Source: Cuneatibacter sp. NSJ-177 (GTDB lineage: Bacteria; Bacillota; Clostridia; Lachnospirales; Lachnospiraceae). Taken from it: a DNA stretch of 64,000 bases. This document shows, one piece after another, positions 35,001 to 50,442 of this stretch. Every line of letters starts with the position of its first letter. Within the stretch, counting starts at the first letter, position 1. Made by a program: the position numbers and the translations under genes. The notes beneath the pieces were generated by a model. The model was not told the origin of the DNA. It made no database searches and was given only the letters and a program-made list of their open reading frames with translations. The stretch is taken from the NCBI RefSeq assembly GCF_022867805.1, contig NZ_JALIFO010000001.1, forward strand, positions 806,001-870,000, in the 5' to 3' direction.

Positions 35001-35042
35001 GAGAAAGGCTGATACGGTCCATAAACCATATCAGCCTTTCTC
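35001..35042 (-). terminator. Hairpin at the end of the CD3324-like gene
   Basis: Perfect 14-bp arms GAGAAAGGCTGATA (35001-35014) and TATCAGCCTTTCTC (35029-35042) enclose a 14-nt loop. The right arm overlaps the stop codon of the minus-strand gene. It can act as a terminator, although the T run on the minus strand is interrupted. Confidence 0.6.
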
Positions 35043-35722: not shown

Positions 35723-36046
35723 TTACTTCTTGCTGTTCAGTTCCTTCATAATGCCGAGGAGATAAGCCGTCGACTTGGGATCCAGTTTCTTTCCCTCTTC
35801 GATAAATTCCTACAGAGCCTCCGGATAAGGATTTCCTTCATCGAAGAATTCCTGCGGCGTTACGCCCAAATATTCGCAAATGAAGAAGAAGGATTGCATG
35901 GCCGGAAGGGACTTTTTGTTTTCGATGTTATTGATGTAATTGTTTGCCTGTCCCAATGACAATGACATGTCACGTGCAGATACACACTTTTGTAATCGTA
36001 GTTTTGCCAGCCGTTCCGGGACGAAATCTTCATACATTGCCTTCAC
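35723..36046 (-). pseudogene. XRE-family regulator with in-frame nonsense codon
   Basis: The frame starts MKAMYEDFVPERLAKLRLQKCVSARDMSLSLGQ with a clear helix-turn-helix and continues YLGVTPQEFFDEGNPYPEAL. A TAG at 35812-35810 interrupts it. Reading through gives EFIEEGKKLDPKSTAYLLGIM to a natural stop at 35725-35723, which is the usual C-terminus of this roughly 107-residue family. The 78-residue product keeps the DNA-binding domain, so partial function is possible. Confidence 0.8.
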
Positions 36047-36114
36047 CTATCATTCTCTAATAGATTACACCTCACACATATGCTTTATTCGCAAAGATAA
36101 AAGGGGTGTTTGCG

Positions 36115-36142
36115 TTGACCTGAAAAACAAATTTATTATAAT
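36115..36142 (+). promoter_or_regulatory. Promoter of the SLOG relic
   Basis: TTGACC (36115-36120), 16 nt, then a perfect TATAAT (36137-36142), just upstream of the SLOG-like gene. Confidence 0.65.
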
Positions 36143-36150
36143 TAGGTGAG

Positions 36151-36437
36151 ATGAAAAAATATAACTATCAAACGGGAGATACAATGAAAGGAAAGACATG
36201 TTGTATTACTGGGCATAGGGATATGCCTGATAAAGAGATTGGCAGCATAAAGAAAGCTCAGCATCAGGAAATAAAAAAAGCAGTGAAGGACGGCTTTCCT
36301 GTAATCCTGTCTGGTTTTGCAGATGGCGTGGATCAGTATTTTGCAGAGATCGTTTTAGAGTTGCAGAAAAAAATGGGGATTTGAAACTGATTGCAGTGCT
36401 TCCATACCGGGATCGACCTCCAGAAAGAATTGCGTGA
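36151..36437 (+). pseudogene. SLOG/DUF1273-like protein, frameshifted and truncated
   Basis: The sequence GKTCCITGHRDMP then GFPVILSGFADGVDQYFAEIV matches the N-terminal half of the SLOG (YpsA/DUF1273-like) nucleotide-binding family. The frame is lost in an A-run near 36368; the +1 frame continues LKLIAVLPYRDRPPERIA before a stop at 36437. The C-terminal third is missing. Start ATG 36151 or 36184 (after GGGAGATACA). Confidence 0.78.
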
Positions 36438-36623
36438 AATTCCGATAGGATTAAACTTGGACAAAAAAAGGATAAATCTTGGATATAGTCGTGTATAGTA
36501 AGAGTGGAGCTGTAGGCAAAACTATGATAGAATAAAACTTTTAAGGATTATTATATAAGCAAAACCCTAAGAGCGGGTTTACTGAATTATTAAAAGAGAT
36601 ACAAAGAAGAAGGAGAACTGGAT

Positions 36624-37055
36624 ATGCTTGATAAAATACCAAATATGGACGATATGACCGCTTTAATCGGACAGTCTTTATATGACGTGTGGCAAAAGCT
36701 ATGCGCTGCGATTGATGAAAAGTACGATATGGACTGCATTTGGAACAGCGGCGGCAAGGCATGGACCTACGAATATAAATACCGCAGAGGCGGAAAAACA
36801 CTCTGCGCCCTATACGCAAGGGAGAACTGTGTTGGCTTTATGGTAATACTGGGAAAGGATGAGCGGATGAAATTTGAAGCCGTCCGAAGTGAGTATTCGG
36901 AAAGCGTCCAGAAGGTCTACGATGACTCAAAAACCTATCACGATGGAAAATGGCTGATGTTTGAGCCGGTTGACACATCTTTGTTTGCAGATTTTATGCG
37001 GCTATTAGCCATTAAGAGAAGACCGAACAGGAGCTTGACATTTATAACAAACTGA
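36624..37055 (+). CDS. DUF3788 family protein
   Basis: The 143-residue cytosolic protein matches the DUF3788 pattern (IDEKYDMDCIWNSGGKAWTYEYKYRRGGKTLCALY, abbreviated at GGKAWTYEYKYRRGGKTL; KRRP near the end). Function is unknown; a stress or nutrient role has not been shown. The last eight codons overlap DNA derived from an acetyltransferase gene, so the natural C-terminus may have been replaced. GAAGGAGAACTGGAT precedes the ATG. Confidence 0.8.
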   Translation: MLDKIPNMDDMTALIGQSLYDVWQKLCAAIDEKYDMDCIWNSGGKAWTYEYKYRRGGKTLCALYARENCVGFMVILGKDERMKFEAVRSEYSESVQKVYDDSKTYHDGKWLMFEPVDTSLFADFMRLLAIKRRPNRSLTFITN

Positions 37056-37349
37056 CCTATAACCAGAAAGAAGAGAAGAAAGGGATTTTACATAAGCTGC
37101 TCGGTGGGATTGGAACAAACGTGTCGGTAGGGGGGCCATTCCTGTGTGATTATGGGTGTAATATTATTACCGGCAGCAATGTGTCGATCAATATGAACTG
37201 CTCTTTTATCGACTGCAATCAGATAAAAATCGGAAATAACGTCATGATTGCTTCCAATGTGCAGATTTATACGGCAACGCATGCCGTGGAACTGGCAGAA
37301 CGCCTGACACCAGACTGGACCCCGGAGAGCGGAAAGCACTATGAATGCT
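37022..37349 (+). pseudogene. Sugar O-acetyltransferase fragment (hexapeptide, Maa/LacA type)
   Basis: Bases 37022-37349 read TEQELDIYNKLTYNQ, PFLCDYGCNIITGSNVSIN, IGNNVMIASNVQIYTATH, then ERLTPDWTPESGKHYE. This is the middle of a maltose/galactoside acetyltransferase; the N-terminus and the rest of the left-handed beta helix are missing. It joins directly, in frame, to a HAD-phosphatase fragment. Confidence 0.82.
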
Positions 37350-37752
37350 CCGAACCCTATGAAGGCATCCCGGATTTGATTGCCGCTCTGCGGGCAAAAG
37401 GATTTATCCTTGCATTGATAACGGGAAAGGGCGAAAGAAGCTGCCGGATTACTTTGAATGAGTTTGGGATGGAACATGATTTTGATGAAATCCTGACGGG
37501 CAGCGAAAATGAAAATATTAAGGCGCAGTCATTGAGGCTGCTACTAAAGAAATATGATTTGCTTCCTGCACAATGTGTGTATATAGGGGATGCGGTTTCA
37601 GATGTGTCAGAGGCCGAAAAGCCGGGGTCATATGCTTGTCTGCTTTGTGGGGAACAACTGCAAAGGCAGAAGAATTGAAAAGCATCAATGCCGATTATAT
37701 ATTTGAAACGGTAGGAGAGTTAAAAGATTACTTGCTCTCTGTGCCAGAATAA
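37121..37752 (+). pseudogene. Chimeric frame: acetyltransferase middle joined to HAD phosphatase C-terminal half
   Basis: The open frame 37121-37678 contains the acetyltransferase piece to about residue 76 and then a HAD-IA C-terminal half: YEGIPDLIAALRAKGFILALITGK, LTGSENENIKAQSL, VYIGDAVSDVSEAEKPG. Near 37645 the frame breaks; the alternative frame continues ALWGTTAKAEELKSINADYIF to a stop at 37752. Motif I of the HAD enzyme (DxDGT) is lost. The chimera is almost surely non-functional. Confidence 0.8.
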
Positions 37753-37779
37753 AAAATCAAAATTACGGAGGTAAAGCGG

Positions 37780-37920
37780 TTGAATATTAAAGGTATCGGT
37801 TCCATATTTTGTCTCATTGCCGCGCTTTTAATGTGTGCAAGATATTTGACTGCTGCGATTTTTATGAGTGGCGGATTTTGGAAGTATGATTTAAGGAAGC
37901 CTGTGAGGATAAACCCCTAA
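37780..37920 (+). pseudogene. Short membrane protein, probably truncated
   Basis: TTG 37780 follows GGAGGT at a good distance. The 46-residue product has one hydrophobic helix (IFCLIAALLMCARYLTAAIFM) and then ends abruptly at KPVRINP. The abrupt end in an intergenic repeat region suggests a 3'-truncated gene for a two-or-more-helix membrane protein. The family is not recognised. Confidence 0.45.
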
Positions 37921-37932
37921 CTTTAGGCTTGA

Positions 37933-37995
37933 TCAGCCGGGCTGAGTTAGATTGATAAGAGAACTGACAAACTTGAAATTGTAGGGCTGATGAAT
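37933..37995. repeat. Intergenic spacer element, divergent copy
   Basis: A perfect palindrome TCAGCC-G-GGCTGA (37933-37945) is followed by GACAAACTTGAAATTGTAGGGCTG (37965 on; key shared part TTGTAGGGCTG). The same TTGTAGGGCTG string occurs in the spacer at 41582-41592. The reverse complement of 37964-37983 also resembles the spacer core ATAAATTCCAGTTTGTCAG with several mismatches. Confidence 0.45.
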
Positions 37996-38018
37996 CAGGA
38001 AAACAAGTATTTGAAGGA

Positions 38019-38037
38019 ATGATACGAATCGTATCAT
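38019..38037. promoter_or_regulatory. Operator-like palindrome upstream of the PAP2 fragment
   Basis: ATGATACGAATCGTATCAT has perfect 9-bp arms around one central base. Such compact palindromes are typical operators for dimeric repressors. It lies 94 bp before the PAP2 start; the XRE regulator now fused to PAP2 is a candidate binder (inference). Confidence 0.6.
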
Positions 38038-38130
38038 ACATGTGACAGAGAGATTCTGTTGTTATTTTACGTTTTTTGATAACGTTAAATTGTCGAAAAG
38101 ACAGATTAACTTTTGAAAGGACGTAGAATA

Positions 38131-38388
38131 ATGAAAAAGAACGGGAAAAAGAATTTATTATTTGGAGTGATACTCCTTGCAACATTTGTAATATGGACAG
38201 CTTTGATTCAGATTGTTGATGTGCAGCCTCTTGGGCAGAATGGAACCAATATTGGATTTGCAACATTCAACTGCTGGTTTCATCGTTTGACAGGTGTTCA
38301 TATGACGCTTTATACGATTACCGACTGGATGGGGCTTGTGCCAATTGTTGTATGTCTGATTTTTGCAGGAATTGGACTGGTTCAGTGA
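38131..38388 (+). pseudogene. PAP2-family phosphatase, N-terminal fragment
   Basis: From ATG 38131 the product has two membrane helices (LLFGVILLATFVIWTALIQI; WMGLVPIVVCLIFAGIGL) and the sequence VDVQPLGQNGTNIGFATFNCW, as at the start of PAP2-like membrane phosphatases. It stops after 85 residues with none of the PAP2 catalytic motifs (KxxxxxxRP, PSGH, SRxxxxxHxxxD). Its end is fused to the second or third codon of an XRE regulator gene. Confidence 0.75.
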
Positions 38389-38989
38389 AAAACTTCAGGA
38401 ATTAAGAAAGAGCCGGGGATTGACACAAGAAGAACTGGCAGAGGCATTGTTTGTTTCCAGAACTGCTATTTCAAAATGGGAATCAAGAAGAGGATATCCA
38501 AGCATAGATTCATTGAAAGAAATATCAAGATTTTTTGCAGTGTCTATTGATGATCTGTTATCAGGAGAACAGTTGATTACAATTGCAGAAAAAGAAAATA
38601 AATCCAATCTCAATACTATATGCGATTTATTATTGGGGTTTGTTGACTTATTTTCTTTGATGCTTATTTTTCTACCGCTGTATCCAAAACCGGTCAATGG
38701 ATATATCTATGCAGTAAATCTCTTTGATTATGTAGATAATGATGTTTTGATTATTACAATCTATTGGGCATTGTTTATCGGCTTAACAATCGTTGGATTT
38801 GTAAAAATACTAATGGTCTATTTCAAATTTGAAAAGGGCAAAAAGGTAGTTAATTCATTGTCCGTTGGGTTCAGTGTTTTTGCTGTTTTGTTTTTGGCGA
38901 TGGCGAGAGAACCATATGCAATAGTAGTAGCATTTTTGCTATTACTTGTCAAAGGTGGTTTACTTTATAAACAAACTAAGGCAGGTTGA
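38363..38989 (+). CDS. XRE-family regulator with C-terminal membrane helices
   Basis: The protein has an N-terminal helix-turn-helix ([35 protein letters not shown]) seen as [12 protein letters not shown] and [10 protein letters not shown], a linker, and four hydrophobic helices from about residue 85 on. Its native start seems to have been lost in the junction with PAP2; TTG 38363 or TTG 38372 inside the PAP2 frame could serve, as the two genes overlap by 26 bp. Membrane-bound XRE regulators are known in Clostridia; the target is unknown, possibly its own promoter palindrome. Confidence 0.75.
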   Translation: [208 protein letters not shown]

Positions 38990-39004
38990 TAAAGTAGTGT
39001 TTCT

Positions 39005-39086
39005 ATAAATTCCAGTTTGTCAGCTTGTTAGGAGAAGCATCATGTACAGCATACATTAGCTGGAATGGCTGGGGACAAGCTAGTTA
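39005..39086. repeat. Intergenic spacer element with core ATAAATTCCAGTTTGT
   Basis: The core at 39005-39020 is followed by CAGCTTGTTAGGAG. Downstream, CTGGAAT and ACAAGCTAGTTAGGAG repeat or invert parts of it: ATTCCAG pairs with CTGGAAT, and AGCTTGT with ACAAGCT in an interlocked (pseudoknot-like) order. Core copies also occur at 41572 and 42308. Confidence 0.5.
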
Positions 39087-39095
39087 GGAGGTAAC

Positions 39096-39644
39096 ATGAA
39101 AGGTTTTAACCGAAAAAATCAATTGTTTTCCCTTTGTGGCTTGAACTGCGGGCTTTGCCCCATGTTTTTAAATAAATATTGCCCAGGCTGCGGGGGCGGC
39201 GAGGGAAATCAGTCCTGTAAAATTGCAAGATGCAGCATGGAGCATAACGGTGTGGAATACTGCTTTCAGTGCGATGAATACCCTTGTCCAAAATACGAGC
39301 ATATGGATGACTTTGATTCCTTTATGACACACCAGGGCCGGAAATCTGATATGGAGAGGGCCCGGCAGTTGGGAATAGAAGCTTATAATGCGGAGCAGGT
39401 GGAAAAGACAAAAATACTGGACATTCTCCTGTCCGATTTTAATGACGGGCGCAAAAAGACACTGTTTTGTACAGCAGTATCTCTTTTGGACCTGCGAGAG
39501 CTGCAGGCGGTACTCAGGCAAATTGAGAACAGAGCTGATTTGGATACACTGACGCTCAAGGAGAAAAGCGCTTTTGCCGCAGGACTGCTTCAGGAAGCGG
39601 CAGCAAAGAACAATATTGAGTTGAAGTTGCGAAAGAAAAAGTGA
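39096..39644 (+). CDS. DUF3795 family protein (Cys-rich)
   Basis: The 182-residue protein begins with the DUF3795 cysteine cluster: LFSLCGLNCGLCPMF, YCPGCGGGEGN, CKIARC, YCFQCDEYPCPKY. These Cys suggest zinc or iron-sulfur binding. The C-terminal half is helical. It is the first and longest of three DUF3795 genes in the array (others at 43194 and 45683). A TTAGGAGG ribosome site lies before the ATG. The biological role of the family is unknown. Confidence 0.82.
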   Translation: MKGFNRKNQLFSLCGLNCGLCPMFLNKYCPGCGGGEGNQSCKIARCSMEHNGVEYCFQCDEYPCPKYEHMDDFDSFMTHQGRKSDMERARQLGIEAYNAEQVEKTKILDILLSDFNDGRKKTLFCTAVSLLDLRELQAVLRQIENRADLDTLTLKEKSAFAAGLLQEAAAKNNIELKLRKKK

Positions 39645-39648
39645 GGAC

Positions 39649-39755
39649 TTCAATACTGCAATCATTTAATAAAGTATTGAAAAGGATAGAGAATATAGAT
39701 AAATGAAAGTAATAAACGCCCCTTTGCAGAAAAATAAGTGATGTTCTGCAAAGGG
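39649..39755. repeat. Two inverted repeats between DUF3795 and MBL genes
   Basis: TTCAATACT (39649-39657) pairs with AGTATTGAA (39673-39681), and CCCTTTGCAGAA (39720-39731) pairs perfectly with TTCTGCAAAGGG (39744-39755). Neither has a T tract. The second is a 12-bp stem with a 12-nt loop just before the MBL ribosome site. Confidence 0.55.
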
Positions 39756-39788
39756 AATCAGATATTAATTATGGAGGTATGCTTGCAA

Positions 39789-40550
39789 ATGGAAAAGTGG
39801 TTCACGATTGATCAGATTGATGAAGGTACATATATTATCAGCGAATACCGGCATTGGGAGGAGACGCATTGCTATCTGTTAAATGGCTCCAGTCGCAGTT
39901 TATTGATTGATACGGGTCTGGGAATCTGCAATATTATTGATGAAGTAATGAAGCTGACAAATAAGCCTGTTACGGCCGTTGCCACCCATATTCATTGGGA
40001 TCATATTGGCGGCCATAAGTATTTTCCGGACTTTTATGCCCATGCGGAAGAATTGAGCTGGCTGAACGGTGAGTTTCCGCTGACAATAGAAACAATCAGA
40101 GAGATGGTGGCAGACCGCTGCGATTTACCAGACGGTTACGATACAGGCACTTATGAGTTTTTCCAAGGGACGCCAACAAAGGTACTGGAGGATGGAGAGA
40201 ACATAGAATTAGGTGGACGGAATATACAGGTATTGCATACTCCGGGCCATGCTCCGGGGCATATGTGTTTCTGGGAATCAGACAGAGGTTATCTGTTTAC
40301 CGGAGACTTGGTTTACAAGGACACTTTATTTGCCTATTATCCGTCAACAGACCCGGACGCATACCTTGCTTCTCTTGAAAAGATTTCGGAGCTTCCAGTC
40401 AAAAAGGTTTTTCCTGCGCATCATAGTTTGGATATTCAGCCGGAGATTTTAAGCAGAATGAGAAATGCGTTCAGGCAGTTACGAGAAGATGGTAAATTAC
40501 ATCACGGCAGCGGTACATTTGACTATGGAGATTGGGCAGTATGGTTATAA
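39789..40550 (+). CDS. MBL-fold hydrolase (glyoxalase II-like)
   Basis: The 253-residue metallo-beta-lactamase-fold protein has the metal motif THIHWDHIGGH, the later ligands HTPGHAPGHM and FTGDLVYKD, and FPAHHSLDI. The substrate may be a thioester or lactone; not predictable. ATG 39789 was chosen because GGAGGT lies 10 nt upstream; earlier in-frame ATGs overlap that ribosome site. A single-gene unit within the array. Confidence 0.88.
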   Translation: MEKWFTIDQIDEGTYIISEYRHWEETHCYLLNGSSRSLLIDTGLGICNIIDEVMKLTNKPVTAVATHIHWDHIGGHKYFPDFYAHAEELSWLNGEFPLTIETIREMVADRCDLPDGYDTGTYEFFQGTPTKVLEDGENIELGGRNIQVLHTPGHAPGHMCFWESDRGYLFTGDLVYKDTLFAYYPSTDPDAYLASLEKISELPVKKVFPAHHSLDIQPEILSRMRNAFRQLREDGKLHHGSGTFDYGDWAVWL

Positions 40551-40647
40551 AGAGAAGGAAGCAGTATAATTTCATTTAGTTGTGTGCTATACAAAAGGCT
40601 TTATCAGAACTAAAGAACAGCGAAAGAGGCTTGAAAGGAGCATTTAT

Positions 40648-41112
40648 ATGAAGTATGTATGTACAGTTATATCGGTAGCGGATATCAGCGCCGCAAGAAA
40701 GTTTTATGAGGAACTGTTCGGGCTAGAGGTCTATCAGGATTACGGAAAGAATATCGCTTTTACCTGCGGTCTGGCATTACAGCAGGATTTTGACTGGCTT
40801 GTAAGTATACCCAAAGAAAAGGTATTGAAGAAATCCAACAATGCGGAGATTGTTTTTGAGGAACAGGATTTTGACGGTTTCCTGAATAAGCTGAAAGCAT
40901 ACTCGGACATCGAATATTTGGGAGAAGTCATTGAGCATAGTTGGGGACAGCGTGTGATCCGGTTCTACGATCTGGACGAACATCTCATAGAGGTTGGAGA
41001 GGATATGCAGATGGTAGTAAAGCGGTTCCTTGCTTCTGGAATGACTATGGAAGAAGTATCTGCGAAAATGGACGTATCCATTGAGGACTTAACAAAACTT
41101 CTGAATAGTTAA
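40648..41112 (+). CDS. VOC-family (glyoxalase/bleomycin-resistance-like) protein with C-terminal extension
   Basis: The 154-residue protein starts VCTVISVADISAARKFYEELFGLEV, the typical VOC opening, and ends the barrel with YDLDEHLIEVGEDM (metal Glu). The final 35 residues (VVKRFLASGMTMEEVSAKMDVSIEDLTKLL) form a helix-turn-helix-like tail. Tail fragments of a paralogue are found at 43572-43721 and 44832-44900. AAAGGAGC precedes the ATG. The substrate is unknown. Confidence 0.85.
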   Translation: MKYVCTVISVADISAARKFYEELFGLEVYQDYGKNIAFTCGLALQQDFDWLVSIPKEKVLKKSNNAEIVFEEQDFDGFLNKLKAYSDIEYLGEVIEHSWGQRVIRFYDLDEHLIEVGEDMQMVVKRFLASGMTMEEVSAKMDVSIEDLTKLLNS

Positions 41113-41157
41113 TTTGCAGCGGGCATATAAACAAATTGGAATTTACGGAGGTTTCGC

Positions 41158-41568
41158 ATGAAAAATAAGGATATTGCAAAATATTTCTATGAAGTTATTA
41201 TTTCGGATAATTTACTTGATGAAATTTCTAAATATATATCGGAGGACTGCGTTCAAAGGATTGGAGAAAAAGAAATGTTCATAGGAATAGACGGAATGAA
41301 AGAACACCTATTAGCATTGAAAAAAACGTATCCTGATTACACTATGAAAATTATCCGTCAATATGAAGTGGATGATTATGTTATTTCAGAATTTATTATG
41401 AAAGGCACTCATAATGGAGAATTTCTCGGAATAACACCCACAAATAAGGTTTTGGAAATTACAGGGGTGGATATTGATAAAATTATAGATGGAAAAATCG
41501 TGGAACATGGTGGTGCTACAAATACTTTTGAAACTTTTTTTGAACACCATTTGATTAAGTCTGTATGA
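41158..41568 (+). CDS. SnoaL-like / NTF2-fold protein
   Basis: The 136-residue protein has the ester-cyclase (SnoaL) pattern: FYEVIISDNLLDEISKYISEDC, GIDGMKEHLLALKKTYPDYTMKI, FIMKGTHNGEFLGITPTNK and VDIDKIIDGKIVEHGG. Family members bind small hydrophobic molecules; an enzymatic role is not certain. ACGGAGGT ribosome site before ATG 41158. Followed at once by a spacer element. Confidence 0.85.
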   Translation: MKNKDIAKYFYEVIISDNLLDEISKYISEDCVQRIGEKEMFIGIDGMKEHLLALKKTYPDYTMKIIRQYEVDDYVISEFIMKGTHNGEFLGITPTNKVLEITGVDIDKIIDGKIVEHGGATNTFETFFEHHLIKSV

Positions 41569-41571
41569 AAT

Positions 41572-41612
41572 ATAAATTCCAGCTTGTAGGGCTGGAAAAT
41601 CCCTGTTTGTAG
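41572..41612. repeat. Intergenic spacer element, copy with hairpin
   Basis: ATAAATTCCAGCTTGT (41572-41587) differs at one base from the copy at 39005. TTCCAGC and GCTGGAA around TTGTAGG form a 7-bp hairpin. The stop of the SnoaL gene is only 4 bp upstream. Confidence 0.55.
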
Positions 41613-41660
41613 AAGACAATAAATACAAAGATAAATTATCATTTTCGGAGGAGGTTCTTA

Positions 41661-42308
41661 ATGAAAATAGAAATAGGGAAAGTGTTTCCGCAGTATTTCA
41701 AGCCCTCATATCCAGAGGAATTTGAACTGTTTTCCCATTTAGAAACAACGGCGGCAATTCCTACGGTTTTATTTGCAATTACCACATGGAAAGAAAACGG
41801 AAAGCCGAATGTCTGCTTCCACGCATGGAGTTGCTTTCATGGTGATAAAACGGCTTTCTTTGCGGTTATGGGAAACCTCTATCAGCATACCCATACCTAT
41901 GCAAATATCCAAAGAGAAAAATGCTTTTGTATCAATTTTCTTCCAATAAGTTATTACGATAAGCTGATAGATACAATTAACCATAATGACTATGAAGCTG
42001 ATGAATTTTCAGTAGGAAATTTTTCTCTTGTAAATGCCAAGACCATTCATGCACCAATGATACAGGAGGCATTTGTAAACATAGAGTGTACTTTAAAAAG
42101 AACACAAGATTTAAGCGGTGCAGGTATTACTTCCATGATTATCGGACAGGTACAGCATATTTCCGTTGAGGAAGAATATGCACAGGGCTATGAAAAACGA
42201 TATGGAAAAGACGGATTTATGATGTTAGTCCCTGCCCCACAAGACTTAAAAACAGGAGAACCTAATCAATCAGCGATTGCTACGATAAACATTGAAAAGT
42301 TTGACTGA
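41661..42308 (+). CDS. Flavin reductase-like protein
   Basis: The 215-residue protein of the flavin reductase-like (FMN-binding split barrel) family contains TTWKENGKPNVCFHAWS, FFAVMGNLYQHTHTYANI and a C-terminal segment with YGKDGFMMLVPAPQDLKTGEP. It probably binds FMN and reduces or exchanges it; the partner is unknown. GGAGGAGG ribosome site before ATG 41661. Its stop codon overlaps the first base of the next spacer element. Confidence 0.83.
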   Translation: MKIEIGKVFPQYFKPSYPEEFELFSHLETTAAIPTVLFAITTWKENGKPNVCFHAWSCFHGDKTAFFAVMGNLYQHTHTYANIQREKCFCINFLPISYYDKLIDTINHNDYEADEFSVGNFSLVNAKTIHAPMIQEAFVNIECTLKRTQDLSGAGITSMIIGQVQHISVEEEYAQGYEKRYGKDGFMMLVPAPQDLKTGEPNQSAIATINIEKFD

Positions 42309-42330
42309 TAAATCCCAGTTTATAGAACAG
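42308..42330. repeat. Intergenic spacer element, copy 3
   Basis: ATAAATCCCAGTTTATAG (42308-42325) matches the core ATAAATTCCAGTTTGTAG at 16 of 18 bases and starts on the last base of the flavin reductase stop codon. Confidence 0.5.
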
Positions 42331-42404
42331 AGAAAATTGTAAGTTATGAAAAGAAAATGTAAGACGGGTACGTAGCCACTATTGAATCGGAGAGGATTAA
42401 GATT

Positions 42405-43154
42405 ATGATTACGGATTCATTTGACAACAAAACTGAGCCTATATTCACGCTGAAGGATTTTTATGGGGAGAGAAAAAAGATACTCGATATCTGCATTATC
42501 ATTTTTTCCAAAGAGATTTACGAGACTGTTCTCACCACATATATTTGCACAAAGATCGCAGAAATCAATGCACCGAACGGGGCTGTTCCGATTTATAAAT
42601 TCAGCTCTGAAGGAAAGGAAATTGCTTTTTATTTATCTGCAATCGGTTCTACCGGAACCTCTGAGTACTGTATCGAGTCAAACTGGCTGACTGGTGCTGA
42701 GAAGTTTATCATGTTTGGCTCGGCGGGAAGTCTCGATAAAGAAAAGACGCAGGGGAGATTCGTTATTCCGACAGAAGCCTACAGAGACGAAGGAATTTCC
42801 TATCATTATGCACCGCCAACTGATTACATCAAGATGAAAAATCACGAAAAGCTCGCTGCTATTTTTGATGAGCTGCACTTCCCATATGTGAAAGGACGGG
42901 TATGGACTACAGATGCGTTTTTGCGTGAAACAGCAGGGCAGGTTGCTAAGAGGCAAGAGGAAGGCTGCATCGCGGTAGACATGGAACTGGCAGGAGTGCA
43001 GTCTGTTTGTGATTTCTACGGTTTTGATTTATATGATTTTCTGGTGACGGGGGATGTGTTATCGGAAGATAAGTACGAGATGGAAAGATTTAATGACGCC
43101 AATCATAATTTGGACAAATTTTATATCGCTTTGGAGATAGCGAAACGAATTTAA
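42405..43154 (+). CDS. Nucleoside phosphorylase family protein
   Basis: The 249-residue protein has the PNP/UDP fold pattern: ICIIIFSKEIYE, FYLSAIGSTGTSEYC, KFIMFGSAGSL (phosphate/base region), VWTTDAFLRET and the ribose-binding CIAVDMELAGVQSVCDFYG. It should cleave nucleosides with phosphate to the free base and ribose-1-phosphate. The nucleoside preference is unclear. Single-gene unit; weak GGAGAGG ribosome site. Confidence 0.87.
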   Translation: MITDSFDNKTEPIFTLKDFYGERKKILDICIIIFSKEIYETVLTTYICTKIAEINAPNGAVPIYKFSSEGKEIAFYLSAIGSTGTSEYCIESNWLTGAEKFIMFGSAGSLDKEKTQGRFVIPTEAYRDEGISYHYAPPTDYIKMKNHEKLAAIFDELHFPYVKGRVWTTDAFLRETAGQVAKRQEEGCIAVDMELAGVQSVCDFYGFDLYDFLVTGDVLSEDKYEMERFNDANHNLDKFYIALEIAKRI

Positions 43155-43193
43155 TCCGAGAATCCATTTGAAGATATAGAGGTGACTGAGGCT

Positions 43194-43526
43194 ATGAAAG
43201 ATATGATTGCATATTGCGGACTGAACTGCGAAAAATGTGACGCATACATTGCAACAATCAACAATGATCAAACATTGCGTGAAAAAACTGCAAAATTATG
43301 GGCAGAGTTAAATAATGCCCCTATTCTCCCTGAACATATTAACTGCCAGGGCTGCCGCGTTGAGGGGAGTAAAACGGTATTTTGTGACAGTCTGTGTGGT
43401 ATTCGTAAGTGTGCGCTGAAGAAGGGCGTTGCAACATGTGGTGACTGCTCCGATATAGAAGAATGTAAAACTGTTGGAACAATTATCCTGAATAACCCGG
43501 AAGCTCTGAAAAATCTAAAAGAATAA
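43194..43526 (+). CDS. DUF3795 family protein, second copy
   Basis: The 110-residue Cys-rich protein contains IAYCGLNCEKCDAYIAT, INCQGCRVEGSKTVFC, CGIRKCALKKGVATCGDC (in parts) and SDIEECKT. The Cys pattern suggests metal binding. ATG 43194 was chosen; a GTG four codons upstream (43182) is also possible. Distinct from the copies at 39096 and 45683 in length and C-terminus. Confidence 0.82.
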   Translation: MKDMIAYCGLNCEKCDAYIATINNDQTLREKTAKLWAELNNAPILPEHINCQGCRVEGSKTVFCDSLCGIRKCALKKGVATCGDCSDIEECKTVGTIILNNPEALKNLKE

Positions 43527-43540
43527 CCGGGTTTAGAAAT

Positions 43541-43753
43541 AACAAAATTCAGGTTTGTCGGTAAGTAACACAACAGAGATCTGGATGGGCATCTCATAGA
43601 GGTTGGCGAGGATATGAAAATGGTGGGCAGACGTTTTTTGGATACCGGCATGACGATGGAGGAAGTATCGGAAAGAATGAATGTTCCCATCGGGGATTTA
43701 GAAAGGCTGCTGAACAGCTGAATGTGAAATAAAATCAGAAGTTGGAGGAAAAT
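43541..43753. repeat. Junction repeat copy A: spacer plus tail of a VOC gene
   Basis: AACAAAATTCAGGTTTGTCGG starts the unit (43541; core AGGTTTGTCGGTAAGTAACA), which then joins a VOC gene tail at about 43572. The tail reads HLIEVGEDMKMVGRRF and MTMEEVSERMNVPIGDL, ending in a stop at 43721, and is followed by AAATAAAATCAGAAGTTG. It closely parallels copy B at 44801. The tail has no start and is not expressed as a protein. Confidence 0.8.
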
Positions 43754-43759
43754 GTATCT

Positions 43760-44389
43760 ATGGCAAATAAATATAAAGTAATTGATGAAAAAACATGGGA
43801 TAGGGCAATGCACTGTATGATTTTTAGAGACAGTGTTGAACCAGCATTTTGCGTAACCTTTGAAGCAGATATTACAAGATTTAGGCGCATGGTAAAGGAG
43901 CGAGGACTTTCTTTTACATTGGCAATGGTACATGCTGTTTGCAAATGTGCAAATGAAATAGAGGCGTTTCGTTATCGGTTTGTTGACGGACAGATTGTTT
44001 TGTTTGAAAAGATAGATACTGCATTTACATATCTTAATCAGGAAACAGAATTGTTCAAGGTAGTCAATGTACCTATGATAGATGATCTGAAAGAATATTG
44101 TGAACTGGCAACAAAAGTGGCAAATGAACAGAAAGAGTATTTTACGGGACCTTTAGGAAATGATGTGTTTCAATGTTCTCCCATGCCGTGGGTAACATAT
44201 ACGCATATTTCCCACACTAACTCGGGTAAAAAAGATAATGCAACACCGCTTTTTGATTGGGGAAAATATTATGAGAAAGATGGAAAGCTTTTGATTCCAA
44301 TTTCTGTGCAGGCACATCATTCTTTTGTAGATGGTTTGCATATCGGACAGTTTGTGGAAAAATTGCAAAAATTGTTGAACGAAGGGTGA
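43760..44389 (+). CDS. Chloramphenicol acetyltransferase-like protein
   Basis: The 209-residue CAT-family acetyltransferase has the catalytic motif QAHHSFVDGLHIGQF (HHxxxDG) near the C-terminus, and the family-typical SFTLAMVHAVCKCANEIEAFRYR split as SFTLAMVHAVCKC and EIEAFRYRF. Such chromosomal CAT-like proteins may acetylate xenobiotics or unknown substrates; resistance is not proven. GGAGGAAAATGTATCT precedes ATG 43760. Flanked by junction repeats A and B together with the lipoprotein gene. Confidence 0.87.
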   Translation: MANKYKVIDEKTWDRAMHCMIFRDSVEPAFCVTFEADITRFRRMVKERGLSFTLAMVHAVCKCANEIEAFRYRFVDGQIVLFEKIDTAFTYLNQETELFKVVNVPMIDDLKEYCELATKVANEQKEYFTGPLGNDVFQCSPMPWVTYTHISHTNSGKKDNATPLFDWGKYYEKDGKLLIPISVQAHHSFVDGLHIGQFVEKLQKLLNEG

Positions 44390-44411
44390 TCAGGAGTTAG
44401 GAGATGCAATA

Positions 44412-44786
44412 ATGAAAAAGATCACAACTTTTTTTAGTGCTATGTTACTTATTATATCATTGTCTGCTTGCTCATCAGACTTTGATGGAAGCAGAACAGG
44501 AAACGACACTCAACTAATTATGGAATATACAGCATTTAATACTACCGACACTCAAGATTTGGTTGTTGAAGCCGGAGATATTATTCATGCAGAAATTGTG
44601 GTTGAGGATGGTCATTTATCATATAAAATTCAGAAAGATGACGAGGAACCTATCGCTGAAAGTGAAGGCATTTTCTTTTCGGTAGAATATGATTTTGATG
44701 TAGAAGAAAGCGGAACATATACAGTAACTGTAATAGGAGAAAACGCAAAAGGGAGTGTAAAATTCGTAGTACAGAGTGCCGAATAA
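44412..44786 (+). CDS. Small lipoprotein
   Basis: The 124-residue protein has a lipoprotein signal peptide with lipobox LSACSS (lipid-bearing Cys near residue 20). The mature part is acidic and beta-rich (YDFDVEESGTYTVTVIGENAKG). It is 22 bp downstream of the CAT-like gene with TTAGGAGATG as ribosome site, so the two may share a transcript. Function unknown. Confidence 0.78.
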   Translation: MKKITTFFSAMLLIISLSACSSDFDGSRTGNDTQLIMEYTAFNTTDTQDLVVEAGDIIHAEIVVEDGHLSYKIQKDDEEPIAESEGIFFSVEYDFDVEESGTYTVTVIGENAKGSVKFVVQSAE

Positions 44787-44800
44787 TAATTGGCGTAAAT

Positions 44801-44925
44801 TAACAAATATAGGTTTGTCGGTAAGTAACACAACAGAGAGCTGGACGGGCATCTCATAGCGGTTGGTGAGGATTTAGAAAATCTGCTGTATAGCTGAGCG
44901 GGAAAGAAAGTCAGAAGTTGTGGGG
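44801..44925. repeat. Junction repeat copy B: spacer plus decayed VOC tail
   Basis: AACAAATATAGGTTTGTCGG starts the unit; the next roughly 55 bases match copy A (43541-43613) at nearly every position, including the same join to a VOC tail (GHLIAVGED). Copy B then lacks about 95 bp of the tail that copy A keeps and resumes at GATTTAGAAA, ending GTCAGAAGTTG like copy A. The two copies bracket the CAT-like and lipoprotein genes. Confidence 0.8.
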
Positions 44926-45002
44926 CTTGAAAATTTTAAGTTGCCTTTATGCGTTCTTGATGGAAAAGGTGTATTTCAAATTGAAAGGATGGTCGGGTGC
45001 TA

Positions 45003-45608
45003 ATGAAAAAAATCATCAACTTCATTGAAGCGAATGTGGATGGCAAAACGCTGTTTACAAAGGAATTAGTTTACGAACTTGAAAATGGTGCGTTACAGGG
45101 CGCTTACTCAGATCAAATATCTTTCTCTAATCTAAAATATTCTCAGAGCGGATTTCAGTTGGATATGTTTATTGTATCTAATGAGAAGATATGGCTCATG
45201 GGAAAGGATGGAGAACGGGAAAAATTGCGAAAAGATTTCAGTGGCGTATCCCTGTTCCGATTTGAACTGGCGGAGCGAAAAAGCACGAATAGTTTGACTG
45301 GCTGTTTTCGTTTCATTTCAGCTTCAGAGAAAAATGTGGCAGCAGAGGCTATCGTAAGTGGAATTTATGATGTGCGTCTTGAAAATGATGTGCTGAAGTT
45401 ATCGGAAGATCAGGTCTTGTATCGGGATCAGCCGATACAAGAAGGGAATTTTAAGCCCGTTGCATTTCAATCGGAACATCGTTTTTATGTTAAAGCTAAT
45501 AAGCTACACTATGAATACAACGGCAAGTGTTTTGATGTGGACTCAAAAACTATGCGGCGTAACGACAGCTCCGATACCTTTCCTCCGTTTATTTCAATCG
45601 AAAAGTAA
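45003..45608 (+). CDS. Hypothetical protein
   Basis: The 201-residue cytosolic protein has no recognised family. The middle part contains DMFIVSNEKIWLMGKDGEREKLRKDFSG, and the end has beta-rich repeats (YDVRLENDVLKLSEDQVLYRDQ). ATG 45003 was chosen over GTG 44997; GAAAGGATGG lies upstream. It is preceded by about 75 bp of AT-rich DNA after junction repeat B. Confidence 0.65.
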   Translation: MKKIINFIEANVDGKTLFTKELVYELENGALQGAYSDQISFSNLKYSQSGFQLDMFIVSNEKIWLMGKDGEREKLRKDFSGVSLFRFELAERKSTNSLTGCFRFISASEKNVAAEAIVSGIYDVRLENDVLKLSEDQVLYRDQPIQEGNFKPVAFQSEHRFYVKANKLHYEYNGKCFDVDSKTMRRNDSSDTFPPFISIEK

Positions 45609-45682
45609 GAAATGACGAATCAGTTTGACAGGAGTGCAGAGATTTGGAAATGCTAATAGATAAATAGTAAAGGGGAGTCTCG

Positions 45683-46033
45683 ATGATAAATAAAAAAATG
45701 ATAGCCTTTTGCGGTACATATTGCGGCGTGTGTGAATGGAAAGATAAAATCGGGTGTAAGGGCTGCAAAGCCAATAGAGGGATTATGTTTTGGGGTAAGT
45801 GCGATAAAGCGATATGCTGCATAGAAAAGGGGCTTGAACATTGTGGGGAATGCTCAGATATGCCCTGCCAAAAGCTCAGAGACCTGTTTGATGATCCAGA
45901 GCATGGTGATCACGGAGCAAGACTTCGCAACCTGAAAAATTGGAAAGATGGCATCTGTGCCTATGAAAAATTAGGCAATACAGCGCAGGAGAAGGCAAAA
46001 AATTTGAAAGCGATTGATAACACCAATGACTAG
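45683..46033 (+). CDS. DUF3795 family protein, third copy
   Basis: The 116-residue Cys-rich protein has MIAFCGTYCGVCEWKDKIGCKGCKA, then KCDKAICCIEKGLEHCGECSDMPC (in parts). These paired Cys probably bind metal. AAGGGGAG precedes the ATG. The third DUF3795 gene in 7 kb. Confidence 0.82.
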   Translation: MINKKMIAFCGTYCGVCEWKDKIGCKGCKANRGIMFWGKCDKAICCIEKGLEHCGECSDMPCQKLRDLFDDPEHGDHGARLRNLKNWKDGICAYEKLGNTAQEKAKNLKAIDNTND

Positions 46034-46181
46034 GAAAGAAAGACAAGATTATTTCAATGAATGAGAATTAGGGCGATGACGTTACAGTTCCACAGTGGAA
46101 ATTGGTAAAAGTGATTGGAACAATCATACACTGATTTTTGGGGTAATAATTAAAATTTGTGAATTTGTGAGAGTATATACT

Positions 46182-46718
46182 ATGTTCAATGATGGAAGAA
46201 GTAAAAAGGTTGTTTTTGTTGCACATTGCTTTTTAAATCAAAATTCCATTTCAGATGGAACGGCGATTTATCCGGCAGCAAATAAAGATGTTATTGATTT
46301 TTTCTTAAATGCAGATATTGGTATTGTCCAAATGCCCTGTCCGGAGTTTTGCTGTTTAGGACTTGATAGGGGAAATATTCATGGAGCTGATAGCCCGGTA
46401 GTGGTAGAGAATACACGCATACGTTCAGCAATGCAAAATGACGACTCGAATTTGAAACTAACAAGACTGGCTGATTATGTAGTGCAACATATCATGGAAT
46501 ATAAGAAATATGGATTTGAAGTTATCGGTATTATTGGGGCAAATCGTTCTCCAAATTGTGGTGTCGAAACAACATCGGACAATGATGCAGAAATCAATGG
46601 TATGGGATTGTTTATAGATAAAATATTTTGCCAGCTTTTGCGAGAAAACATATCTATTCCCATGATAGGCATAAAGGGAACGGACAACATACAAGAAAAA
46701 CTTCAGCAGTTAATATGA
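46182..46718 (+). CDS. TudS-related putative desulfidase (DUF523-like)
   Basis: The 178-residue protein has three Cys-containing motifs: VVFVAHCFLNQNS, MPCPEFCCLGLDRG and GANRSPNCGVETT, matching the CD3072/TudS-related group that is thought to bind a [4Fe-4S] cluster and remove sulfur from thiolated nucleobases. Activity here is inferred from family only. ATG 46182; the upstream in-frame extension lacks a ribosome site. Confidence 0.78.
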   Translation: MFNDGRSKKVVFVAHCFLNQNSISDGTAIYPAANKDVIDFFLNADIGIVQMPCPEFCCLGLDRGNIHGADSPVVVENTRIRSAMQNDDSNLKLTRLADYVVQHIMEYKKYGFEVIGIIGANRSPNCGVETTSDNDAEINGMGLFIDKIFCQLLRENISIPMIGIKGTDNIQEKLQQLI

Positions 46719-46781
46719 GTTAAGGAATAAGGGCACAAGCATGATTGTTCTGTCCTTGAAAGCATATCAGAATAAGGCGAA

Positions 46782-47342
46782 ATGAAGATTTGTATGGAGG
46801 ATGCAACGAGATATATTGCGCTTTTGCGCGGTGTCAATATAAGTGGAAAAAATAAAGTTCCGATGACTGAACTAAAGAAAGCTTTTGAGGAGCTTGAGTT
46901 CGGAGCGGTTAAGACCTATCTGAACAGCGGCAATGTGATTTTTTCAAGTGATGAAGAGAATATAGGGAGCCTTACAGACCGGATTGAAACAACGATAAAA
47001 AAGTGGTTTGGTCTGGATATTCCGATTTTCGTCATATCAAAAGAGGATCTCGAAGATATTTTGCAACACGCGCCTGACTGGTGGGGTGATGAAAATAAGG
47101 AAATCTATGATAATCTGATTTTTATTATGCCTCCAGCTACATTTGCTGAAGTGCGGGACGAGATCGGAGAACCCAGGGAGGGGTTGGAAAAGATTCAGGA
47201 TTATAAGGAAGCGGTATTCTGGTCTTTCAGCCGAAAGGATTATCAAAAGACAAACTGGTGGAGGGAGACGGCAAGTGCGAATATCAGCGGCAAACTGACA
47301 ATCCGAACGGCAAACACCGTCAGGAAGATAAAAGGCATGTAA
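46782..47342 (+). CDS. DUF1697 family protein
   Basis: The 186-residue protein starts with YIALLRGVNISGKNKVPM and TYLNSGNVIFSS, ending TANTVRKIKGM: the complete DUF1697 pattern. Function unknown. ATG 46782 was kept, but ATG 46794 is possible. A divergent tail of the same family appears after the next gene (48603-48656). Confidence 0.85.
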   Translation: MKICMEDATRYIALLRGVNISGKNKVPMTELKKAFEELEFGAVKTYLNSGNVIFSSDEENIGSLTDRIETTIKKWFGLDIPIFVISKEDLEDILQHAPDWWGDENKEIYDNLIFIMPPATFAEVRDEIGEPREGLEKIQDYKEAVFWSFSRKDYQKTNWWRETASANISGKLTIRTANTVRKIKGM

Positions 47343-47395
47343 GGCTATTAATATGGAGAAGAGCTGGGAGAATAATATAATGGAAAGGAATTGCT

Positions 47396-48586
47396 ATGAA
47401 TGAAATCTATCAGCAAGCAAAATTATTACAGCCAGAGTTGGTAAAAATCAGAAGAGAAATACATCAAAATGCTGAGGTTGGGATACAGCTGCAATATACC
47501 AAAGCATTTGTGAAAGAGAAGCTAATTGCGTATGGATATAAACCCCAGGACATTGCCAATAGCTCAATTGTGGCAACAATCAGCGGCGAACTCCCTGGTA
47601 AAACTATGCTGCTTAGAGCAGATATGGACGGCTTAGCCATTAAGGAAGAAACTGATTTAGAATTTAAAAGTGTAAACGGTGCTATGCATGGCTGTGGTCA
47701 TGATATGCATACCGCCATGCTGTTAGGTGCTGCAAAATTGCTTAAAAAGTATCAAAACCGGCTTCAAGGAAAAGTAAAATTATTATTTCAGGAGGATGAA
47801 GAAGGTTTTACCGGGGCGAAGGCTGTGATTCAGGGAGGTGTTTTGGAAAATCCAAAGGTAGATGCAGCCATGGCGCTTCATGTAAACTCTGGTACGCCGA
47901 GCAATATGGTGCTGTGTGGTCTTGGCCATTTCATGGCTGGCTGCACTTTGTTTCGCATTGAAGTAAGAGGCGTGGGCTGTCACGGAGCGATGCCTGAAAA
48001 TGGGGTTGACCCAATTAATATTGCGGCACATATTTACCTGTCGTTACAGGAAATTGCAGCGAGAGAAGTGGCGGCGCAAGACCCTTGTGTATTAACGATT
48101 GGTAAATTTGCCGGTGGACAAACTCCCAATATTATTCCTGAAAAAGTCGTTTTAGAGGGAACAATCCGTTACAAAAACAAAGAAACAGGGGATAGAATTT
48201 TTGAAAGAATTCAAGAAATTTCAAAACTGTGTGCCCAATCCTTCAGAGGAAGGGCAGTTGTAACGGAATTATCCAGTGCGCCGCCTCTGATAAACAACGA
48301 TGAGATGATCTATGAGTTTTGCGATTACATTAAGCAATTCATTGCCCCTCAGCAAGTCAGGATATTGCCTCAGGGAGGTATGGGCAGCGAGGACTTTGCT
48401 TCCTTTAGCTATCAGGTGCCCATTGCCTATTTATTATTAGGCGCCGGTACCAACCAGGAAAATGAAGCGTATGGTAAACCCATGCATAATCAAGGCGTTG
48501 TGTTTAATGAAGATATATTGTCCCTTGGGAGTTCGATACTCACGATATGTGCTATGAATTGGTTGAGCAAACATCGAGATGATTAA
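47396..48586 (+). CDS. M20D-family amidohydrolase/peptidase
   Basis: The 396-residue metal-dependent amidohydrolase has RREIHQNAEVGIQ, the motif MHGCGHDMHTAMLLGAA, the Glu pair in FQEDEEGFTGAKAVI (usually FQPAEE), GCHGAMPENGVDPIN in the dimerisation lid, and GGMGSEDFASFSYQVP. Likely substrates are N-acyl amino acids or indole-acetyl-type conjugates; not predictable. AAAGGAATTGCT before ATG. Placed between a full DUF1697 gene and a DUF1697 tail. Confidence 0.9.
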   Translation: MNEIYQQAKLLQPELVKIRREIHQNAEVGIQLQYTKAFVKEKLIAYGYKPQDIANSSIVATISGELPGKTMLLRADMDGLAIKEETDLEFKSVNGAMHGCGHDMHTAMLLGAAKLLKKYQNRLQGKVKLLFQEDEEGFTGAKAVIQGGVLENPKVDAAMALHVNSGTPSNMVLCGLGHFMAGCTLFRIEVRGVGCHGAMPENGVDPINIAAHIYLSLQEIAAREVAAQDPCVLTIGKFAGGQTPNIIPEKVVLEGTIRYKNKETGDRIFERIQEISKLCAQSFRGRAVVTELSSAPPLINNDEMIYEFCDYIKQFIAPQQVRILPQGGMGSEDFASFSYQVPIAYLLLGAGTNQENEAYGKPMHNQGVVFNEDILSLGSSILTICAMNWLSKHRDD

Positions 48587-48602
48587 GATTTATTCCGCTC
48601 AG

Positions 48603-48656
48603 CGACAATCTGACAGGCAGAACGGCAAACACCGTCAGAAAAATAGTTGGAATGTG
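48603..48656 (+). pseudogene. C-terminal relic of a second DUF1697 gene
   Basis: Seventeen bases after the M20 stop, the sequence reads LTGRTANTVRKIVGM, nearly the end of DUF1697 at 47296-47342 (LTIRTANTVRKIKGM). The nucleotides AACGGCAAACACCGTCAG are identical in both. The two tails differ at other positions, so they come from paralogues, not from a recent exact copy. Confidence 0.72.
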
Positions 48657-48681
48657 TGTGTTTATTTTCCACATCCCAACT
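48645..48681. terminator. Hairpin between convergent M20 and GntR-type genes
   Basis: AGTTGGAATGTG (near 48645) pairs with CACATCCCAACT (ending near 48681) with one mismatch; GACAATC/GATTGTC flank it further out. It is followed on the plus strand by ACTTATTTT and lies between convergent genes, so it may terminate both. Confidence 0.6.
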
Positions 48682-48690
48682 GATTGTCAC

Positions 48691-50151
48691 TTATTTTAAG
48701 GAATCTCTGTCAGGGACCTGTACAGATAAAGCCTCGGTAAAATGGTGTTTCTCAACCATATATGCCTGGACAGAAGTTAAAATCAGACGGTAAGAGTCGG
48801 CTAGACACTCGGCAAACTCAGCGTTGTTTCCTGAACGCAGACAGTGATATGCTTTACGGGTGATTTTATTAAGCTGTCCGATTGCATCGGCTCCCTGCGG
48901 GTAAAATGCGAAATAGAAACCCCATTCTGTGACTTGGCTGGTTTCCTGCCAAATGGTTTGCAACGGTACTAAGGTCAGTCGTTTAAAAATCATCTGAAAC
49001 AGATTTGCGAGCGCTATTCCTGGCTTCTTGTTCTGGGCAGCCAATGCTTTCAGGTCATCCTCGCTAAAATGAGGTGCAGTGTAGGCTGCGACTGGGTAGG
49101 ACAGCAGTACCATGAGCTGCAGCGAATAGAGATATGTTAGGGCGTCCCGCTTCGTAGTAATATCCAGAAGCGCCTGTTCGGTGTTAAGCTGGTCGGGAGT
49201 CAGAACCATCGTACCTTTGCCGTTTAAGGTTTTTGTGTAGCCTCTGCGTTCCAACAAAGTTAATGCCTTTCTGACTGTATAGGCAGACACGCCATACTGC
49301 TTGGCCAGCTCAGCTTCATAAGGTAAATAAGTTCCGGACGAATAGACGCTTGTTCCTATCTTTCGCGTCAAATCGCGGACAATGCGGGTATAGTAGTAAT
49401 CCTTCCCTCTGAGGGGATTCCATTCAAATGAAACCGGCACCTGGGCAGGCGCCTGGGTAACGCTGTCTGACATCTGGGTGAAAATTCCCTTAATAATGGC
49501 GGACATGTCTTGGTAAAGTGCTTTTAAATGATGATACTGTTCAACTGGATCGCGTTCTGATAATACATCAATGATGGATTGGGGATCAAAAGCCGGCCTC
49601 TGGCCCATGATATCCTGGGAAAAACTACATTTTTCTAAAAAGTACGCAAAATTCCCCTGAAGTTCAAAGGCTGTGTGCAGATCACATAACAGAGGGTTGT
49701 GGGTGGCGCCTAAAATATCCCTCGTCAGTGCAATCAGAGCCTTCCAACTCTCAGAACAGATACCCTGCTGCACCGCTCTTTGAGCCTGCCGATAGTGGGG
49801 CATGGACTCAATTGAACATTTATGCGCAGCGAATACAAGCAGATAGGGCAATAACCGTCCATATGTTTCATACACCTGTAAGATAGAATCCCGCTGCGCT
49901 AACATCGTAGATATTCCAGGGCCTGCCAGACTGTTGGGAAGAACTACGGGAGCCTGCCGGATCCGGATGTCGATCAGTTTTTCCGCCTTTAGGGTATCTA
50001 ATACCCGCGTAATGGTCGCAATTCCCACATTGTATTCTTCACATAGATTTCTGGAAGAGGGGAGTTTGCTGTCGGGCTGGAATTGCCCTGAAGCAATACG
50101 TTTTTTTAAATCTTCATATACATAAGAAAAACGAGTTTCCTGTCGTTTCAT
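48691..50151 (-). CDS. Regulator with two GntR-type winged-helix domains
   Basis: The 486-residue protein has one GntR winged helix at the N-terminus (YVYEDLKKRIASGQF, LPSSRNLCEEYNVGIATITRVLDTL) and a second at about residues 265-330 (LPYEAELAKQYGVSAYTVRKALTLLERRG). Helical regions of about 170 residues follow each. No FCD/UTRA motif is recognised. Two DNA-binding domains in one chain suggest binding to paired sites. ATG 50151 has AGAAAGGG 10 nt upstream; an earlier ATG at 50184 does not. It is divergent from the signalling cluster. Confidence 0.82.
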   Translation of the reverse strand: MKRQETRFSYVYEDLKKRIASGQFQPDSKLPSSRNLCEEYNVGIATITRVLDTLKAEKLIDIRIRQAPVVLPNSLAGPGISTMLAQRDSILQVYETYGRLLPYLLVFAAHKCSIESMPHYRQAQRAVQQGICSESWKALIALTRDILGATHNPLLCDLHTAFELQGNFAYFLEKCSFSQDIMGQRPAFDPQSIIDVLSERDPVEQYHHLKALYQDMSAIIKGIFTQMSDSVTQAPAQVPVSFEWNPLRGKDYYYTRIVRDLTRKIGTSVYSSGTYLPYEAELAKQYGVSAYTVRKALTLLERRGYTKTLNGKGTMVLTPDQLNTEQALLDITTKRDALTYLYSLQLMVLLSYPVAAYTAPHFSEDDLKALAAQNKKPGIALANLFQMIFKRLTLVPLQTIWQETSQVTEWGFYFAFYPQGADAIGQLNKITRKAYHCLRSGNNAEFAECLADSYRLILTSVQAYMVEKHHFTEALSVQVPDRDSLK

Positions 50152-50193
50152 AATATAAATGCCCTTTCTCAAGCTCAAACACATATTGTTTAT

Positions 50194-50223
50194 ATTATAC
50201 TACATAATTCCGAAGAGTGGCAA
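50194..50223 (-). promoter_or_regulatory. Promoter of the tandem GntR gene
   Basis: On the minus strand TTGCCA (50223-50218) and TATAAT (50199-50194) are 18 nt apart. Confidence 0.5.
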
Positions 50224-50442
50224 TGGAACTTAAAACAGAGGGGTATGTAGTTGAGTTATTACAAGTATTTCTTCTTGTGTATGACAGGACATAATGATAA
50301 AATAAAAAACAAACCATTGTCAAATTAGAAAAGAATAGTGCGGCCGAATAGGCCGTAAAATTTTCCTATAACCTATTTGCAAAGGTTAGCAGAATGGTAC
50401 TGAGAAAGATAATAAGATTAATAAATTCACTGGAGTGATGGT

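Follow-up and report, generated by a model that had tools for sequence, protein, structure and literature searches.

What are two closely similar junctions doing on either side of a pair of unrelated genes in the genome of a gut Lachnospiraceae? Within the window (the whole stretch of 64,000 nt from Cuneatibacter sp. NSJ-177 that was analyzed), a short spacer is joined to the 3′ tail of a VOC gene twice, in copy A (43544-43721) and in copy B (44804-44897), and the two copies bracket a CAT-family acetyltransferase gene and a lipoprotein-like gene (Table 1). An earlier note, made from the letters alone, had described this bracketing, the recurrence of the junction at the same join point and the unrelated genes in front of each copy, and all three hold. 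The repeat search recovered spacer, join point and VOC tail in both copies (43537-43620 against 44797-44880, 86% identity, spacing 1260; 43694-43744 against 44870-44920, 82% identity, spacing 1176), and the genes preceding them are a DUF3795 gene (by Pfam) and a lipoprotein-like ORF, respectively.

Table 1. Features of the array in the window; S is the post-stop site described in the text.
Feature	Position	Strand	Basis or remark
Low-GC cassette-like array, approximate extent	36400..48600		Limits by eye; GC ~0.38-0.43 vs ~0.54 upstream
S site after HTH gene; exchange point vs LachA96	39006..39023	+	20.2 bits
Intact VOC gene with homologous tail	40648..41112	+	Pfam PF12681
S-like site after VOC gene	41132..41149	+	16.2 bits
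Two S sites after SnoaL gene; first is a hairpin	41573..41613	+	13.8 and 19.0 bits; fold
S site after flavin reductase gene; exchange point vs B. parvula and E. porci	42309..42326	+	20.6 bits
DUF3795 gene preceding copy A	43194..43526	+	Pfam PF12675
S site opening copy A (AAAATTCAGGTTTGTCGG)	43544..43561	+	PWM 18.7 bits; 17 nt past DUF3795 stop codon
Copy A spacer core, common to copy B and relatives	43554..43577	+	Repeat and pattern searches
Copy A VOC 3′ tail	43578..43721	+	47 codons plus stop, open frame
CAT-family acetyltransferase gene, bracketed by copies	43760..44389	+	Pfam PF00302, 127.6 bits
Lipoprotein-like gene, bracketed by copies	44412..44786	+	ORF
S site opening copy B (CAAATATAGGTTTGTCGG)	44804..44821	+	PWM 13.9 bits
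Copy B spacer core	44814..44837	+	Repeat and pattern searches
Copy B VOC tail, shortened	44838..44897	+	19 codons plus stop; 84 bp shorter than copy A, in frame
201-aa gene after short composite (copy B)	45003..45608	+	No family assigned; comes after 5 of 5 short composites
Second DUF3795 gene	45683..46033	+	Pfam

The join falls at an identical position in the two copies, the spacer being followed by GATCTGG in copy A and by GAGCTGG in copy B. The 24-nt spacer core, TNTGTNGGTNAGTAACNCANCAGA, matched the window at 43554 and 44814 only, even with up to 3 mismatches allowed (0.00 expected from shuffles), and the tail of the composite corresponds to the last part of a VOC (Glyoxalase_2) gene, sharing 73% identity with the intact VOC gene of the same array. 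Copy B does have the shorter tail, as had been noticed, but the loss amounts to 84 bp (28 codons) with the frame kept, instead of ~95 bp. The VOC frame is open up to the stop in all 15 composite tails that were translated, including the forms with 3-bp and 84-bp deletions; short composite tails lack an in-frame start codon (by eye).

The CAT-family protein scored 142.6 bits against the NCBIfam CatA model, under the cut-off of 270, so the label of chloramphenicol resistance gene is unwarranted for it without a test; the lipoprotein-like gene had no family match in Pfam or NCBIfam. The junction was considered and rejected as a promoter or terminator, since promoter-like matches in 43500-45050 stood at chance (5 vs 5.3 expected) with 0 terminators in the same interval, and as a known RNA element, since Rfam at gathering thresholds gave no match in 34000-50500. 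Carriage of the array by a plasmid or phage was also rejected: a near-mode search with 12.2 kb of array matched neither the plasmid nor the phage collection. Elsewhere in the window, 37121-37678 is a chimeric gene, whose acetyltransferase-like 5′ part (by eye) runs in frame into the 3′ part of a HAD hydrolase at ~37338, and corresponds to two separate genes (201 and 222 aa) in G106, Blautia schinkii and others; two sortase-like genes and a pilin-like protein (by eye) lie near the right end (61524-63620).

Composites of this kind are scattered over several genera. When the genome_contigs collection (84,980 species genomes) was scanned for the spacer pattern, 8 sites came up on 7 contigs, from B. 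schinkii, B. parvula, Anaerostipes hominis, Eisenbergiella porci, an Oscillospiraceae MAG and two Lachnospiraceae records; at genus level, the junction was found only in the window's own genome (1 of 3 genus genomes, own included). In the family sample, a 99-bp query matched 16 of 397 genomes (own included), mostly via the VOC part, the spacer-mediated matches outside the own genome being limited to G106 (twice) and G138. A query with the longer spacer type gave strong matches family-wide in 3 of the 397 genomes; 172 genomes were listed at E ≤ 0.5, and the matches in the other 169 were at chance level.

We compared 17 stretches from 13 genomes, four of which (G178, G324, G264 and G165) had been picked for VOC-part matches and are without a composite. 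The other nine hold 15 composites (spacer core with at most 2 mismatches), and B. parvula and the Oscillospiraceae MAG carry further, degenerate ones. The genes preceding the 15 composites fall into 10 protein clusters and those following them into 7: the 201-203-aa gene (5 cases, and next after all 5 short composites), CAT (4), SnoaL (2) and, once each, DUF3795b, a cluster-24 gene, a second CAT-like gene and a nitroreductase-like gene (the last two named by eye; in the nitroreductase-like case the ORF after the composite lies 368 nt away). Four of these 7 clusters (SnoaL, DUF3795b, cluster 24 and CAT) directly follow a VOC gene elsewhere. Across genera, this one junction connects many left genes, unrelated to each other, with several right genes.

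It had been proposed that recombination between such repeats would excise or insert the genes between them, and the relatives lend this idea support. Where the window runs CAT, lipoprotein, copy B and 201-aa gene, G106 runs CAT, lipoprotein, full composite, DUF3795b, short composite and 203-aa gene; where the window has a single, chimeric copy B, two composites thus enclose an additional DUF3795 gene in G106, and copy B equals the left flank of the first G106 composite plus the right part of the second. The arrangement with a single copy and neither bracketed gene, which the earlier note had suggested looking for in relatives, was found in G138: its fetched stretch reads hydrolase-like gene (by eye), DUF3795b, short composite and 203-aa gene, so that it has a single composite and lacks both CAT and the lipoprotein gene. 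G138 also lacks the segment corresponding to ~45614-46175, with the second DUF3795 gene of the window, at a clean join. In B. schinkii, CAT without the lipoprotein gene stands between two composites, and VOC, GNAT-like gene, composite and SnoaL correspond to VOC and SnoaL in the window, while B. parvula has the window's gene order throughout this stretch at 97.5% identity. E. porci has copy A, but a deletion from 44486 to 44972 has taken away the whole of copy B and the greater part of the lipoprotein gene; this deletion uses neither S nor the composite or VOC tail, so ordinary illegitimate deletion is at work as well. Comparison of the relatives thus supports gain or loss of genes between composites.

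The spacer is indeed shared by the two copies, as claimed, but the claim missed that both spacers open with a site that is also an exchange point of other genes. This site, which we call S, is ~18 bp long (AAATYCCAGTTTRT-like) and lies 0-35 nt past the stop in many array genes that are unrelated to one another; each of the 35 nonredundant sites at 11 bits or more is so placed, and their consensus is approximately AAMTYSVRRTTTRTNGR. A de novo motif search of 117 post-stop sequences (200 reduced to 149 and then to 117 by filtering on similarity and requiring a gap of 15 nt or more, array limits per genome being chosen by eye) returned.AAATtc.AgTTTGT.GA with a log-likelihood of 205, vs 67, 62 and 60 in three shuffled sets. 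In two-fold cross-validation, with refinement begun from the all-data motif, S at 10 bits or more was present in 28 of the 117 array sequences (18/63 and 10/54), leaving 89 without it, vs 0 of 110 core genes in both folds and 6 of 1170 shuffles (6/630 and 0/540); the shuffles are the fairer control, as the core controls are probably richer in GC. On the plus strand of the arrays, sites of at least 11 bits number 67 in intergenic DNA (25.4 kb) vs 10 in genic DNA (117.7 kb); on the minus strand, 22 and 9. The window has 7 plus-strand sites of at least 13.5 bits, all within 39.0-44.9 kb, and copies A and B each start with one.

A hairpin was dropped as a general feature of S, with only 2 of 7 sequences folding better than all 200 shuffles and the rest in no clear excess. 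The exact motif had 25 matches in 8 whole genomes vs 0 for a reversed control; several of them lie inside ORFs or distant from stops, so that the exact motif alone is no genome-wide marker. At three loci outside these arrays (L112, L116 and L110 ~1501), exact motifs have as neighbors genes that by eye look like GNAT, oxidase and TfoX genes, and fragments similar to tyrosine recombinases occur close by; the L110 locus represents another DUF3795/DUF3788-type array, in A. hominis.

S is also where genes change neighbors. The same PNP leader is joined at S by the flavin reductase gene in the window (42310), by DUF3795b in B. parvula and by an MBL gene in E. porci. The HTH gene (window 39021, compared with LachA96) and the DUF3795 gene (window 43559, compared with E. 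porci) have two right partners apiece, with the switch within S, each joining the composite and another leader; HTH, DUF3795 and SnoaL genes each precede another DUF3795 gene, with a common right module from within S onward. By sequence comparison, the left gene in several cases retains the left arm of S while the right partner changes. Across the alignments, blocks of ~93-98% identity change partner at S or within VOC tails.

Queries with the flavin reductase end and the HTH end matched 19 and 15 genomes, respectively, of the 397-genome family sample. In three further family genomes, G007, G395 and G171 (loci L164, L165 and L170), HTH homologues have the 3′ UTR and then S in the same place, with divergence beyond. 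The HTH gene is present in G104 with S broken in the right arm, and in G010 and G288 similarity to the HTH end stops at the stop codon; S directly after an apparent stop occurs beside other genes in G173 and G285. Tails of the flavin reductase gene (3′ end) are found as scars beside other genes (L036 5534-5815; L028 ~13355), so VOC is not the sole gene to leave tails.

We consider it likely, with a probability of about two in three, that A and B represent two instances of one dispersed recombination junction, within a cassette-like array of small accessory genes, with exchange at S and at the VOC tails. Such a junction would have three parts: an S site, a stub of 16 nt and the 3′ end of a VOC gene. 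It could have originated once, by a deletion from the leader of a lost cassette (S plus the 16-nt stub) into codon 108 of a VOC gene, and could then have spread through exchange at S on its left side and through homologous recombination of VOC tails on its right; wherever two junctions recombined, the genes between them would be removed or added. Copy B looks like the product of such a recombination between two junctions. The agent at S could be either RecA or short-repeat recombination or an unrecognised site-specific recombinase, any of which would fit.

It is also possible, though we hold this only tentatively, that S is merely a conserved 3′-UTR element (e.g., for mRNA processing or stability) and that horizontally acquired DNA was shuffled by homologous and illegitimate recombination of the ordinary sort. 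The confinement of the 35 sites to the first nucleotides after stops agrees with such a role, as do the two sequences that fold better than all their shuffles. With blocks of at least 150 bp and at least 88% identity (524 block rows, breakpoints within 6 bp merged), 42 of 231 intergenic breakpoints fell in S±3 vs 14.4 expected, at a nominal p of 5e-10 that is not corrected for shared ancestry, by reason of which the breakpoints are not independent. The other 189 lie outside S, which favors the 3′-UTR explanation, and further breakpoints lie inside genes (37033, 37340 and 46398); on that explanation the clustering at S would be only apparent, given that intact genes end there and that selection retains only intact genes. 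What tells against it is that different left genes share a right module from inside S, which needs recombination there, and that none of the 110 core genes carries S.

An unrecognised site-specific gene-cassette system in Lachnospiraceae, a Gram-positive counterpart of the integron with S as the core site of a resident recombinase, seems to us unlikely. Such a recombinase would excise or insert single genes with a 3′ S site, and the VOC-tail composites would be duplicated docking junctions.

Local tandem duplication of one composite is a very unlikely source of A and B. The two do lie in one window with the same join and 86% identity, but over ~70 bp copy A is 99% identical to the B. parvula copy, 97% to a copy in an Oscillospiraceae MAG and 96% to one in B. 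schinkii, against 90% to copy B, and copy B is 93% identical to copies in G106 and LachA96. Each is thus nearer to composites of other genera than to its neighbor, as members of a dispersed pool would be, and the local duplication envisaged earlier was not borne out; duplication of A to give B was rejected on this table of ~70-bp composite comparisons. Near-identity with different left genes is seen elsewhere, too: G106 19076 and LachA96 11493 agree at 100% over ~70 bp (left genes DUF3795b vs HTH), and G138a 1931 and Bschi 12726 at 99% (DUF3795b vs CAT).

That the array might be a degraded integron (CALIN), with S as an attC remnant, is highly improbable. The likeness is real as far as it goes: small genes of unrelated function stand head to tail on the same strand, a short, partly inverted site follows their stops, single genes come and go, and partners switch at the post-stop site. 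The attC sites of integrons have the R boxes RYYYAAC/GTTRRRY and a long imperfect hairpin. S is shorter, at ~18 bp, with another sequence; the 35 sites have GTTTRT in place of GTTRRRY, and most of the tested sequences do not fold clearly better than shuffles. The integron integrase model TIGR02249 did not reach its 265-bit cut-off in any of 10 genomes (best 88.4 bits), which speaks against a complete integron only, since CALIN lack an integrase nearby by definition. Between the negative integrase search and the unlikeness of S to attC, the integron was rejected. The array differs further in using the tail of a VOC gene as a second exchange sequence and in a backbone that is largely collinear. 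For Firmicutes, the IntegronFinder 2.0 paper (PMC9024848) gives one complete integron and a few CALIN. There is next to no chance that the copies are independent pseudogene remnants of decaying VOC paralogs: a VOC tail is present in both, but the similarity takes in the upstream spacer, common to copies and composites, with the same join point at 15 sites, and simple paralogous decay was rejected on this ground.

Other known systems resemble the array in part. The mosaic cargo regions of integrative elements gain and lose genes via recombination between short repeats, and here, too, direct repeats flank removable genes; unlike in those regions, the repeat accompanies stop codons of numerous unrelated genes, and a single chimeric junction is met again in several genera. 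The last array gene of G264 is followed, 330 bp further on, by a tyrosine recombinase gene (Pfam Phage_integrase; L034 17098-18318, minus strand), a hint that an integrative element may carry the array as cargo; the left flank in that genome (sigma-like gene with a G165 homologue, Fic, DUF3268, signal peptidase and YpsA genes) is partly common to several genomes. No integrase was seen adjoining the array in the window. Repeats of the REP/BIME type are short, partly palindromic and intergenic, and are located after genes, all of which applies to S as well, but the exact S motif is rare and occurs several times inside ORFs. Xer/dif modules are bounded by 28-bp dif-like sites, and S is, by eye, unlike the dif consensus.

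The broader result is a cassette-like array in which a short site goes with stop codons, and it comes from a phylum with few integrons by the figures of PMC9024848 given above; we found no earlier description of this array or of the S site in the open-access literature searched. Although Firmicutes have almost no integrons, gut Lachnospiraceae of several genera share near-identical single genes (CAT-family, VOC, SnoaL, DUF3795 and others) in reshuffled order, and the points of exchange fall at a definable short site. Should S prove to be a recombination site, it would open a way to study how these bacteria swap single accessory genes; if it is not, it would still be a usable marker for hotspots of gene turnover.
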